Shown: positions 31,049 through 37,298 of the stretch, one piece after another
Layout of the letters: the number at the start of each line of letters is the position of its first letter
How positions within the stretch are numbered: position 1 is the first letter of the stretch
Assembly: GCA_030748775.1 (NCBI GenBank)
Contig: JASMLH010000001.1
Coordinates: 67,744-106,657, forward strand
Reading direction: 5' to 3'
DNA: 38,914 nt
Source of the DNA: Candidatus Thalassarchaeaceae archaeon
Lineage (GTDB): Archaea > Thermoplasmatota > Poseidoniia > Poseidoniales > Thalassarchaeaceae
Program-made: the position numbers and the translations under genes
Notes under the pieces: generated by a model
Database searches by the model: none
Told to the model about the DNA's origin: nothing
The model's input: the letters and a program-made list of their open reading frames with translations, nothing else

Positions 31049-31633
31049 TCAGGCATCCCCTACAGCCTCATCCATCTCACTGTCAGTTTGTTCTGGAGGG
31101 AGGGTGTCTTCTGGGTATGTTGTATTCCTCATGCCCTTGAATGGGTCCAAATCCTTCTCAATGAGCCTTAGGATCCTCCATCTCGGGGCATATGAGAGGT
31201 GAACATAAATTGGCCCAGGAAGTATCATTATCGCTAATCCCACTAACTCTACCATTCCTCCGTATTCGTAGAATTCTGAGAACACCATCACTAGGAGTCC
31301 GATGAAGGGGAACGGGAATAGGTACCTCCTCCTGAGTTCAAGCCTCACTGGAGGCCTCTTTATTGCCATTGAAGTAATCAGTGAAATTGCACCCAATGAT
31401 GCCGTGACCACCACCAGCCTTGCAGCCAGAGATGGCCATTCTTCCAGCTCACCGATAAATGCCGAGAGCAGAAGCAGCGGAATTGCAATTAGAACTCCAT
31501 AGAAACCGCCAACAAATGCCGGGTTCGCCCAAGTCAACGGATATCTCAGGAATAGCCCACTAAGGCCACCTGGCTCGAGCATTTGGCGATGCTCCTGATC
31601 AAGCCCTCCGACCGCGCCCCTCCAGTTAACCAC
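31049..31633 (-). CDS. Membrane protein, unknown
   Basis: 194 aa, four hydrophobic segments. Confidence 0.6.
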   Translation of the reverse strand: MVNWRGAVGGLDQEHRQMLEPGGLSGLFLRYPLTWANPAFVGGFYGVLIAIPLLLLSAFIGELEEWPSLAARLVVVTASLGAISLITSMAIKRPPVRLELRRRYLFPFPFIGLLVMVFSEFYEYGGMVELVGLAIMILPGPIYVHLSYAPRWRILRLIEKDLDPFKGMRNTTYPEDTLPPEQTDSEMDEAVGDA

Positions 31634-31747: not shown

Positions 31748-32956
31748 ATGACAGAGTGGCAGTTACCGACTGCTCTGGGGTTTGTAATGTCCGAGGAAGA
31801 CTCACTTTTCACAATCTCTGAGAAGCACTTGGATAGTGGTCTCCGTGGAATTCCTGTTGGCACCTGTCTCACCTCTTACGTAGACCCAGTTGAGGGAGTT
31901 CACTACGTGGGCTATCCAGTAGGGGACCTATCAAACCTGGAGGAGGAGGACGTAATCTACCTGCTTTTTCACAAGAAGCTTCCGAACGACGAAGAGTCGG
32001 CAGCCTTCAGGAAGGAACTGGCCCATCGCGGTGAAGAGATCCCTACTGGTGCACTCAGAGTTCTAGAGACTCTAACTCCCGGTAGCGGACATCCCATGGA
32101 CTGGCTGTCAATTGGCATTATGGCAATGGGGGCCGCCGAAACGACTGGCGATGCAAGGTCAGATTCGATGAACCTGATTGCCAGAATGCCGGAACTAATG
32201 GCTCGGATTTTCCTGCTCAGAGGAGGGGAGAAGGAGAAATTGCGCCCTAGGAAGACCGAACTCGGCCTAGTCGAGAATTTTGTCCATATGCTAGGTATTG
32301 ACGGGGGGGAAGCCGAGAGGATGAAACGGGTCTTGCGATTCTTCTTCATATTGCACATGGATCATGGAGGGGGGAACCTGTCTACATTCTCGGGCAAGGC
32401 GGTTGCCTCTGGTCGGGCCTCGGTTTATGCTTCATTGGCCAGTGCAATGAATGCCCTCTCAGGGCCACTACACGGACGTGCAAACCAGGCCTGTCTAGAG
32501 TTCGTTCAGCGGATAGGAACATCAGATCACTCCGAAATCGAGGATTTCGTAAGATCAGAACTAGCCGCCAAGCGTCCGATTTATGGCTTCGGACACGGCG
32601 TACTAAGGGCCGAGGATCCCAGAGCACGACTCCTGATTGAATTGGGCTCGGAGATCTGCCCCGACGACGAGCACTTCCAGGTCGTTAAGGCGTTGAGGGA
32701 GGTCGTACCCCCGATTCTGAAAGAGCATCCGAAGATCAAGAATCCATATCCGAACGTCGATCTCGCTAGCGGAAGCCTACTCCATGCGATTGGCTTCCGA
32801 AAGCCTCACTACTATACGACATTCTTCGGATGGGCCAGAGTAGCAGGAATTTGCGCGCAGATCCTGGATGAGAGGAACTCAAGGGATGGACGGGGCGTGC
32901 CTATCTACCGACCCAAGTACATAGCAAAGGACCAGCCTTCTAGGCGCCTGGACTAG
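31748..32956 (+). CDS. gltA: Citrate synthase
   Basis: GNLSTFSGKAVASGRASVYASLASAMNALSGPLHGRANQACLEFVQRIG, YGFGHGVLRAEDPRA, RPKYIAKDQPSRRLD C-terminus; GGAGG upstream. Confidence 0.93.
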   Translation: MTEWQLPTALGFVMSEEDSLFTISEKHLDSGLRGIPVGTCLTSYVDPVEGVHYVGYPVGDLSNLEEEDVIYLLFHKKLPNDEESAAFRKELAHRGEEIPTGALRVLETLTPGSGHPMDWLSIGIMAMGAAETTGDARSDSMNLIARMPELMARIFLLRGGEKEKLRPRKTELGLVENFVHMLGIDGGEAERMKRVLRFFFILHMDHGGGNLSTFSGKAVASGRASVYASLASAMNALSGPLHGRANQACLEFVQRIGTSDHSEIEDFVRSELAAKRPIYGFGHGVLRAEDPRARLLIELGSEICPDDEHFQVVKALREVVPPILKEHPKIKNPYPNVDLASGSLLHAIGFRKPHYYTTFFGWARVAGICAQILDERNSRDGRGVPIYRPKYIAKDQPSRRLD

Positions 32957-34065
32957 CTGCTATGGGTCTTCCCTGCGCCTCTATGGCCCAGGATCCTGGG
33001 ACTTCCCCATGGCAAGCCCTCTTCGGCATCTCTGGCCCATCTTTCCTCAGTCCCCTTCCATCGCATCCTAAGCCCCTGTTCTTTGACGATTGACGCTCTA
33101 TTGCCCGGCTCCAATTCAGACCAACTCGGGAGTGACTCCGAAGCCTCAATCATCAGTTCCGCCAACTCATTACTCGAAGCCTGCCCCAACCTGGCCGACC
33201 ATTCTTCATCCAATGGCTGGCTTGCAGGACGGGGCCAGCGAGGACTCCCGTCCGGCCTTTCCACAACTTGTGGATCCATGTGGTCTGTCACTATCGAAAC
33301 TCCCGCCCTCAATAGGGCGGCTTCTCTTTCCAATGGAGCAGGCCAGACAAAAAGACCCATCCCCCGGCGAATTTCCTGTAGCCTTTCCAATCCTTTTCCA
33401 TTCAGGCCCACTGGAGGTCCGGGATTGATCCATCTGGTCCATCCGGATAGGTACTCCATTGCCATCCCCATGGATTCCATGCCATCCCTCCTGACGGTTC
33501 TGGCTATTGATCGAACAGAGGTCCTTGCAAAGTGGGGCATTGCAACCGTACGCTTCACCCTCCAATACCTCCCCCATGACCTAATCCTAGGCATCAGGCG
33601 CGTCACTGGAATGCCAAAGCCCACGGAATTGGCAACTGGACCAATCCTAGGTGAGAAGCTGGAAACGAGAATAGATCTGGCTGGAAGGTCAAGTGAGTCC
33701 AGCTTTTGGCCTAGAAGTTCCATGGCTGAACCTAGGTATTTGTCGGTGTCTATCCTGTTCACCGGGTGAGGAATCTTGAATTCTATGTCCACGGTCTTCC
33801 CCCCGTCCTGCCAATGATCAGTGAATGACCGATTCTTCAGCAAATCGTCCATCGTCGCAATCCCGAATCCTCTAAGTTCGTTGGTGGACAATTGCTCGAC
33901 GCACCTTCCACGAATTGCCCCCTTTCCCGGAACGAACTCATCGTGGTAGATGACCAGTTCACCTTCTCCGTCGATCCTCAGATCAAACTCAACCCCATCA
34001 GCGAACTCCATCCCGTGCTGTAACGCTGCGACGGAGTTCTCATCGGGTTGTTCCCATGTACTCAT
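32953..34065 (-). CDS. Glycerophosphodiester phosphodiesterase-like protein with C-terminal HRG motif (apparent circular permutation)
   Basis: N-term DENSVAALQHGMEFADGVEFDLRIDGEGELVIYHDE; VDIEFKIPHP; GVSIVTDHMDPQVVE; C-term SPRILGHRGAGKTHSS. In-frame TAG immediately precedes the ATG. Confidence 0.85.
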   Translation of the reverse strand: MSTWEQPDENSVAALQHGMEFADGVEFDLRIDGEGELVIYHDEFVPGKGAIRGRCVEQLSTNELRGFGIATMDDLLKNRSFTDHWQDGGKTVDIEFKIPHPVNRIDTDKYLGSAMELLGQKLDSLDLPARSILVSSFSPRIGPVANSVGFGIPVTRLMPRIRSWGRYWRVKRTVAMPHFARTSVRSIARTVRRDGMESMGMAMEYLSGWTRWINPGPPVGLNGKGLERLQEIRRGMGLFVWPAPLEREAALLRAGVSIVTDHMDPQVVERPDGSPRWPRPASQPLDEEWSARLGQASSNELAELMIEASESLPSWSELEPGNRASIVKEQGLRMRWKGTEERWARDAEEGLPWGSPRILGHRGAGKTHSS

Positions 34066-34170: not shown

Positions 34171-35988
34171 ATGTCAGAGACAGTAGAATTAGACCGCGCA
34201 TCAGACCCAAAAGCCGTCAGAGGATACGCATTTTACGATTGGGGCAAATCAGCATTCGAAACCAGCGTTACAACAGCAATCCTTCCGTTCTGGTTTGCTC
34301 TTCTCTTCTTGGAAGCAAACGGTCTGACCACAACAGTTCTATCTAAATCAATGTCAAGTGATGCAATTTGGTCATTCTCAGTTTCTGGGGCCGCATTGCT
34401 CGTCGCTCTCATCAGCCCCTCTCTGGGCGTAATCGCAGATCGCAGGGCAATCAAGATGTGGTGGTTGAAGATTCTAACATACGTCGGAGCAGGATCAACA
34501 TTCCTTCTTTTCGCTGCCCCTCTTCTGCCAGTCAGTACCCAATGGGTCTGGCTAATGGTGATGTTCATACTGGCAAATATCGGATTGAACGGAGCTGGGG
34601 TGTTCTACAACGCGCTCCTGCCTCATATGGGTAAAGATGACGAAATGGACCGCATATCCAATCTGGCTTTTGCTTATGGCTATCTGGGTGGGGGGTTGCT
34701 ACTAGTCATCCACATCGTGATTCTCATGATCACAGATTATGCAGAATGGGCCACCCAACTGGCGATGGCTACTTCCGGAATTTGGTGGTACGGCTTCGCC
34801 CTATTGACATTCAATTGGGTCCCTGAACCTCCAATAGAGAACGAAATGGAGTCATTGGGGATAAAGGAGTCCGCCTCCCTGGCAATAAGGGAGATCAAGA
34901 AGACCATAGGAGAGGTAGACAAATTCAGGACACTCTTCATCTACATGCTCGCTTATTTCTTCTTCATTGATGGCATCAATACCGTAACCGCATTAGGTGG
35001 AATCTTCGGAACGACCGTATTGGGAATTACAGGGCTTGACCTAATGGTGACAATTCTAGCTATCCAGTTCGTCGCAGCCCCTTCTGCAATCGGTTTCACC
35101 AAACTATCTGAGAGAATCGGGACAAAACAAGCGTTGACAGCCTCTCTTATCGGTTGGGTTGTGCTATGTTTTGCGGCCCTTGCCTTCGCACCCCTTCAGT
35201 TCGAGTCCCATGAAGAGTATCAGATTCGATATGACTGGGACGATGCATCTAGTTCATACAATGTTCAGGTGGATGAGAATATTCCCGAACTGGCTCAGAA
35301 GTTAGAATACCAGAATGATGAGTTTGATGAACAGGGTTGGGCCACTACTTGGAGTCATGTACTGCCCATCGAGATTGACGATCGGAGTGACACAAAGAGA
35401 TGGATGCTTGTGGAAAGAGACGCAGAAGGCGAGAAGACCGAAGAAACTCACATTCTTTCCCTCTCTGGCATTGATTCTGGGGAGATCGAGTCATTCATCG
35501 CCACTCTAGACAATTCGAGATTCAGTGTGAGCATTTCAGGGGGATCATTGGATGCCGCCTCCAATATAGGAGTTGACCACCCAACCAACCTGGGTGACGG
35601 AAAACTGGATTGGATCCCTCAGACTGCCAGAGACAAAGTCTGGGAACCCCTAGGCCTATCAGTAGGGTTCCAATTCTTACTCTTGGGATGCGCTATGGGT
35701 ACCCTATTGGGTGGATCCCAAGGTCTCGCTAGGAGCCTTTTCGGACAGATGGTCCCAGAAACCAGAAGTGCTGAGTTCTTCGGCTTCTTCGGCTTCTTCG
35801 GCAAAGTTGCTGCTCTAATAGGGCCCTTGTTGTATGGATTCATGACGGTGGTATTCGATAGCAGAGTAGGGATTCTCAGCATCTCAGTACTAATCCTGAT
35901 AGGTACCTTGTTGATGAGAAAGGTGGATGTAGAGCAAGGAAGGAAAGACGCTGCCGCAGAAGACGCTAGGAACCGAGGATTGGCCTGA
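34171..35988 (+). CDS. UMF1/Atg22-like MFS transporter with soluble insertion
   Basis: GYAFYDWGKSAFETSVTTAILPFWFALLFLEANG; AEFFGFFGFFGKVAALIGPLLYG; multiple TM. Confidence 0.88.
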   Translation: MSETVELDRASDPKAVRGYAFYDWGKSAFETSVTTAILPFWFALLFLEANGLTTTVLSKSMSSDAIWSFSVSGAALLVALISPSLGVIADRRAIKMWWLKILTYVGAGSTFLLFAAPLLPVSTQWVWLMVMFILANIGLNGAGVFYNALLPHMGKDDEMDRISNLAFAYGYLGGGLLLVIHIVILMITDYAEWATQLAMATSGIWWYGFALLTFNWVPEPPIENEMESLGIKESASLAIREIKKTIGEVDKFRTLFIYMLAYFFFIDGINTVTALGGIFGTTVLGITGLDLMVTILAIQFVAAPSAIGFTKLSERIGTKQALTASLIGWVVLCFAALAFAPLQFESHEEYQIRYDWDDASSSYNVQVDENIPELAQKLEYQNDEFDEQGWATTWSHVLPIEIDDRSDTKRWMLVERDAEGEKTEETHILSLSGIDSGEIESFIATLDNSRFSVSISGGSLDAASNIGVDHPTNLGDGKLDWIPQTARDKVWEPLGLSVGFQFLLLGCAMGTLLGGSQGLARSLFGQMVPETRSAEFFGFFGFFGKVAALIGPLLYGFMTVVFDSRVGILSISVLILIGTLLMRKVDVEQGRKDAAAEDARNRGLA

Positions 35989-35990
35989 GA

Positions 35991-37298
35991 TCATTCAGAA
36001 CGGATCTCTTCCAGTGCCTCAATCACCGAGGCTTGGGTGATCCGGCCACCCCGTTCCCTGAGCATGGATGCCACCTTGTCTACCTCTTCGCCCTCGGCTC
36101 CAGCGGTAACTGCCATGTTCCTGACATGCAGCTTCATGTGGCCTGCTTGGATTCCCACAGTGGCCAGGGCACGTAGCGCACCGAGGTTCTGAGCCAATCC
36201 CGAAGCCGCCATCACCTTAGCTAGCTCGTCTGCGCTCTCAACGCCCAGAAGTGCCACATTCGCCTGTGCGGCAGGATGGACCCTTACCGCGCCACCAACC
36301 AGTCCCACTGCCATGGGCAGTTCGATAGATCCTACCAGATTGCCAGCATCGTCCTTCGACCACTTGGTCAGTGAACCGTACGTCCTCTCGTGAGAGGCAT
36401 AGCTGTGAGCCCCGGACTCGATTGCCCTCCAATCCTGGCCGCAGGCTATTGCTACGGCGGAAATGGCATTCATAATGCCCTTGTTATGAGTAGTCGCTCT
36501 GAAAGGGTCCGCCTCAGCGAAGTGGTATGCCTGGATCACTCCCTCGATCACTTCGCTACCCTGCTGGGCATCATCGCCCTTGTCCGACATCTCCTCGGGG
36601 GTGAAAACCGCACTAACCCTAGCAAGCCTGTGGACTGCTAGGTTGCTGATTATCCTCAGGATTACCGTTCCACCGGTTATCGCCTCTACCTTCGGTGCAA
36701 TTGTCTCAGCCATGGTATTGACCGCATTCGCCCCCATAGCATCCCTGCAGTCGACCAGAATGTGGACAATGAGCATTGGTCCAGAACCAGTCTCGATCAC
36801 CCTAGCTGTGATGTCTCTGCACCCTCCTCCGAACTTAACCAGGATGGGGTCTACCTCATTGCAGCTCGAAACAAGGTCATCCTTTGACGCAATAATCGAC
36901 TCCATGGCCCCATTGGGGTCCTCACAACCCACGACTTGGATCTGGCCAATCATCACAGGGTCATCATTATTCGAAGTGAATCCCCCATTTTCCAGGCACC
37001 TCTTGGCCATGTTGCTCGCAGCAGCTACCACACTGGGCTCCTCAAGGACGAAAGGAATCGCATAATGAGAGCCATCGATTACGAAGTTCGTAGCCACTCC
37101 TATGGGGAGCGAGTACGTCCCCACCACGTTCTCGATCATCCTGTCTGCGGACTCTTCGTCCAACTCCCCAGAGTTGGCCCATGCCTCCAACTGTTCTTCA
37201 GAGAGGCCCGCAATGCCTGCAAGGAGCTCCCTTCTCTCGGCTACTGACAGTTTGTAGAATCCCTTGATGCGACTGTTCTCTATTGGCATGGCACTCAA
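35991..37298 (-). CDS. mvaA: Hydroxymethylglutaryl-CoA reductase, class II-like (start 37298 or 37289)
   Basis: RIKGFYKLSVAERRELLAGIAGLSEEQL, ENVVGTYSLPIGVATNFVIDGSHYAIPFVLEEPSVVAAASNMAK, MGANAVNTMAETIAP, GIMNAISAVAIACGQDWRAIESGAHSYA. Confidence 0.93.
   Translation of the reverse strand: MSAMPIENSRIKGFYKLSVAERRELLAGIAGLSEEQLEAWANSGELDEESADRMIENVVGTYSLPIGVATNFVIDGSHYAIPFVLEEPSVVAAASNMAKRCLENGGFTSNNDDPVMIGQIQVVGCEDPNGAMESIIASKDDLVSSCNEVDPILVKFGGGCRDITARVIETGSGPMLIVHILVDCRDAMGANAVNTMAETIAPKVEAITGGTVILRIISNLAVHRLARVSAVFTPEEMSDKGDDAQQGSEVIEGVIQAYHFAEADPFRATTHNKGIMNAISAVAIACGQDWRAIESGAHSYASHERTYGSLTKWSKDDAGNLVGSIELPMAVGLVGGAVRVHPAAQANVALLGVESADELAKVMAASGLAQNLGALRALATVGIQAGHMKLHVRNMAVTAGAEGEEVDKVASMLRERGGRITQASVIEALEEIRSE

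Follow-up and report, generated by a model that had tools for sequence, protein, structure and literature searches.

Glycerophosphodiester phosphodiesterases (GDPDs) carry an N-terminal HRG motif, with the PEN motif straight after it. A gene on the minus strand of the window (the whole 38,914-nucleotide stretch of Candidatus Thalassarchaeaceae DNA analysed here; ORF 34065..32953) encodes a 370-amino-acid protein in which PEN stands near the start and HRG at the extreme C-terminus, as a sequence-only reading of this DNA had pointed out. This locus thus raises the question of whether the unusual order is a natural circular permutation of a GDPD, as that reading proposed in preference to a truncation, and of what such a protein would do. 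The evidence below makes it very probable that the protein is a cytosolic GDPD whose TIM barrel was circularly permuted once in the ancestor of the Poseidoniales and is closed by a C-terminal beta-1; we infer its activity and substrate.

Motif order and its conservation in Poseidoniales

The circularly permuted GDPD gene (32953..34065, minus strand, as are all features of the protein given here) starts with an ATG directly preceded by an in-frame TAG, and its product ends in SPRILGHRGAGKTHSS before the stop codon. The chain starts just after the usual position of beta-1, as first described: P-D-E-N-S (residues 7-11, with PDEN at 7-10; 34033..34047) marks the start of alpha-1, N10 being 97.9% and E9 95% identical in an alignment of 141 rows. 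The other motifs follow in the usual order: ExD at the end of beta-2 (E26 and D28, predicted metal ligands; 33982..33990), HD with the predicted catalytic histidine (H41-D42; 33940..33945), ExK at beta-3 (E95 and K97; 33775..33783), and beta-8 (257-260) with D261, which belongs to a TDxMDP motif (33283..33297). A linker of roughly 60-80 residues had been described next; the linker exists, as a helical connector from beta-8 to the relocated beta-1, but measures about 87 residues (266-352; 33010..33270). The C-terminal tail R357-ILGHRGAGK-T367 (32965..32997) represents the relocated beta-1 and HRG loop, with HRG itself (H361-R362-G363; 32977..32985) about 10 residues from the stop.

The native protein matches the Pfam GDPD profile (PF03009) with 31.9 bits against a cut-off of 23.6, residues 7-141 aligning to profile positions 9-150, and all 75 members of homologue set A2 match the same profile at E <= 0.01. 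The catalytic and metal-binding residues of the family (HRG, ExD, HD and ExK) are all present, whereas the canonical order, HRG before PEN, is not: profile positions 1-8, the site of HRG, have no N-terminal counterpart in the protein. No Pfam domain above cut-off was found in the connector (residues 266-352).

The window contig comes from a genome that is 58% complete. A search of relatives showed that most genomes in the two Poseidoniales families have a full-length homologue that aligns over its whole length, and a class-wide search of 341 genomes gave a strong match in approximately 295 of approximately 320 Poseidoniales genomes (hand count); those without a strong match are mostly incomplete assemblies. 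The orthologue survey, which might have returned a canonical N-terminus, instead found the permuted order in 140 of 143 distinct copies, with HRG located 6-19 residues from the stop and invariant even though total identity drops to about 30%. Two of the three remaining copies (L037 and L021) are cut by contig ends. The third (L018, genome G023) is missing its last ~35 residues, including HRG, while the downstream citrate synthase gene is still close by, reflecting either a genuine loss or an assembly deletion. Connector length varies among the homologues, genus g14 having a clearly shorter one, but the tail is retained. One permuted copy (L142) comes from a contig assigned to a Rhodobiaceae metagenome-assembled genome; this contig is probably mis-binned because its close relatives are Poseidoniaceae sequences.

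Conservation was scored in an alignment of 141 non-redundant rows that does not include the three copies with incomplete tails. H361, R362, G363 and G365 show no variation in these rows, an invariance to be read beside the count of 140 in 143 because incomplete tails were excluded; R357 and G360 each differ in a single row. Six of the nine columns 357-365 reach 97% identity or more, compared with 27 of 370 overall (hypergeometric p ~6e-6), and the C-terminal HRG is therefore not a chance occurrence. E26, D28 and H41 are each 97.9% identical, E95 99.3% and K97 98.6%, while D261 is identical in all rows; the claim that every catalytic residue is present thus holds, with D42 the least conserved at 93%. 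Residues R276, P284 and W315, outside the GDPD motifs, are also conserved.

Predicted fold and alternative readings

An AlphaFold2 model built with 75 homologues (pLDDT 92.8, pTM 0.92) contains eight barrel strands (24-31, 91-96, 132-136, 154-158, 198-202, 237-241, 257-260 and 358-361), the eighth being the C-terminal ILGH segment, and four helices in the connector (287-295, 298-311, 320-333 and 340-349). A second run (pTM 0.88) used 36 Poseidoniaceae sequences, the window protein not among them, and produced the same C-terminal strand at 368-371, so that two different alignments yield the strand on which the permutation depends. In Foldseek searches, the best PDB matches of both models are nearly all GDPDs, with lysophospholipase D structures also among the matches, although these matches preserve chain order and do not by themselves demonstrate permutation. 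The predicted fold is thus a TIM barrel whose nearest solved structures are GDPDs.

Lysophospholipase D is another GDPD-fold enzyme, and its appearance among the fold matches bears on the alternative that the protein is permuted and folded as proposed but that its active site acts on some other phosphodiester or phospholipid rather than on glycerophosphodiesters. This alternative is also favored by the extra conserved residues R276, P284 and W315 and by the long stem branch of the permuted sequences in the tree described below (1.9 changes per column). However, every GDPD catalytic position is kept, and GDPDs in the strict sense head the fold matches; a different substrate is therefore possible but rather unlikely.

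In a mean-field coupling analysis of 140 sequences (effective depth 89, hence noisy), the pair I258-I358, which joins beta-8 to the C-terminal strand, took rank 4 of ~66,000 pairs and first place among strand-strand pairs. This coupling supports the neighbor relation expected of beta-8 and beta-1; no clear beta-1/beta-2 coupling emerged from the analysis, which is too shallow at that depth. Together, the strand assignment, the high pTM and this one covarying pair suggest that the C-terminal strand is placed between beta-8 and beta-2. It might instead complete the barrel of a neighboring subunit, yielding a strand-swapped oligomer with active sites shared between chains. Such an arrangement is compatible with a monomer prediction, and the conserved connector is long enough to reach elsewhere, but the confident monomer models form the C-terminal strand within their own chain and genus g14 retains the tail despite its much shorter connector, making strand exchange improbable.

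When the 16 C-terminal residues were placed ahead of the rest of the chain, the Pfam GDPD score rose by 9.0 bits, from 31.9 to 40.9, and the match now started at profile position 1, whereas a shuffled version of the moved tail gave 32.4 bits, that is, no gain. A doubled sequence of the window protein, a check suggested with the original observation, matched across the joint (361-511 to profile positions 1-150), and the distant homologue L111 gained 5 bits on the same rotation. The protein thus behaves as a circular permutant: it aligns over the start of the family after rotation, and the gain is specific to the moved segment. The bits are gained at exactly profile positions 1-8, which argues against a third reading, in which the protein derives from a GDPD that lost beta-1 from its N-terminus, and HRG at the C-terminus is an unrelated segment, for example a nucleotide-binding loop. 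GHRGAGKT in the window protein does match the Walker A pattern GxxxxGKT, and K366 occurs in 83% of rows; but the invariant residues are G-H-R-G-x-G, the lysine is missing in ~17% of rows, and the predicted fold is that of a TIM barrel instead of a P-loop protein. The P-loop NTPase reading was rejected on these grounds and is very improbable. Finally, an assembly error, frameshift or wrong start hiding a canonical HRG-PEN N-terminus has a negligible chance of being correct and was rejected: in-frame codons shortly upstream of the start happen to read ILG, but a stop lies directly before the ATG, relatives with an open upstream frame carry no HRG there, and the permuted order is found in 140 distinct copies from both families, in which such an error cannot recur.

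Origin, role and gene neighborhood

The permuted order appears confined to Poseidoniales within Thermoplasmatota, the scope of the survey of GDPD chain order. Among the matches listed by a PF03009 search across 296 Thermoplasmatota genomes, all those from outside Poseidoniales begin at profile position 1, where HRG lies, whereas matches of the permuted Poseidoniales proteins start at 6-10, except for one protein cut by a contig end (G055). Marine Group III, a sister lineage in the same class, contains one canonical GDPD per genome (L148-L154); it differs from the permuted protein in its N-terminal HRG, its length of 230-247 amino acids and its gene neighborhood. Positional orthology between the two is unsupported, their neighbors being different. 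Many Thalassarchaeaceae also encode a second, short GDPD-like protein (L155-L158 and L160; 193-236 amino acids) with the canonical N-terminal order SGHRLGASGT..ENT, which looks too short for a full barrel.

In a tree of sequences rotated to canonical order, the permuted proteins group together in a single clade (support 100/99) on the long stem noted above. A single event before the split of the two families is therefore the simplest account. The tree does not resolve the canonical donor lineage, and the long-stem clade may be attracting the short GDPD-like paralogue. The likely route to the permutation is that a canonical gene was duplicated in tandem, the two copies fused, and the outer parts of the fusion were then lost; no intermediate of this route was seen.

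In GDPDs, the metal is bound by ExD together with the glutamate of ExK, a pair of histidines serves as general acid and base, and phosphate is bound by the arginine of HRG. If the barrel is permuted as proposed, the chain would run from alpha-1 (PxEN) through beta-2 to beta-8 and the conserved helical connector to beta-1 and the HRG loop. The model and the covariation indicate that the C-terminal strand would close the barrel beside beta-8, and H361 and R362 would thereby be brought back to the active site opposite H41, E26, D28, E95 and K97. Judging from residue conservation, the enzyme probably splits glycerophosphodiesters into glycerol phosphate and an alcohol, using the usual GDPD mechanism that depends on a metal and two histidines. 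Cytosolic breakdown of glycerophosphodiesters is its likely role because the protein starts at alpha-1 and no signal peptide is seen by eye. Given the long stem and the extra conserved residues, the specificity of the enzyme could have changed.

In 70 of 80 named loci, the GDPD gene and a citrate synthase gene lie tail to tail, usually with 6-33 bp between them; this pairing, retained across Poseidoniales, suggests a stable position rather than a shared function. In the window, the stop codons of the two convergent genes overlap in the palindrome CTAG (32953-32956). An Atg22-like MFS transporter gene (34171-35985, plus strand) is divergent from the GDPD gene, a layout found in 39/80 loci, and is a possible transporter partner. 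Also present in the window are genes encoding an HMG-CoA reductase (35991-37298, minus strand) that matches the NCBIfam "degradative" class TIGR00532 with 439 bits, in an archaeon, and a 194-amino-acid protein (31049-31633, minus strand) located between citrate synthase and aminotransferase genes in 12/80 loci, for which no Pfam or NCBIfam match was found.

Comparison with known systems

Poseidoniales (Marine Group II) are abundant ocean archaea, and nearly all sampled members carry the permuted GDPD. Profile annotation labels these proteins N-terminally incomplete and leaves a true catalytic histidine unassigned. A permutation fixed across a large clade supplies numerous natural homologues with which to study, by experiment, how barrels close and how permutants originate. 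A literature search for a permuted GDPD, or for a GDPD in Poseidoniales, returned nothing relevant in literature that took in a minority of subscription journals. The protein probably represents a previously unreported natural permutation of the GDPD barrel that arose once and became fixed in a whole abundant marine archaeal order, and its new helical connector may have altered substrate or regulation.

The permuted protein shares with the GDPD family (PF03009; solved structures 1o1z, 2pz0, 4oec and 7e0v) the TIM barrel, the HRG, PEN, ExD, HD and ExK motifs and a profile score above cut-off. It differs in having beta-1 and HRG at the C-terminus instead of the N-terminus, a helical connector of ~90 residues after beta-8, and a length of ~370 rather than ~240 amino acids. 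To our knowledge, few natural circular permutations of TIM-barrel enzymes pass through the active-site strand. Known natural permutations of TIM barrels include glycoside hydrolase family GH70 relative to GH13 and transaldolase relative to other aldolases; in these, as proposed for the Poseidoniales protein, the strands that close the barrel come in a shifted order along the chain, but these cases belong to enzyme superfamilies other than GDPD.
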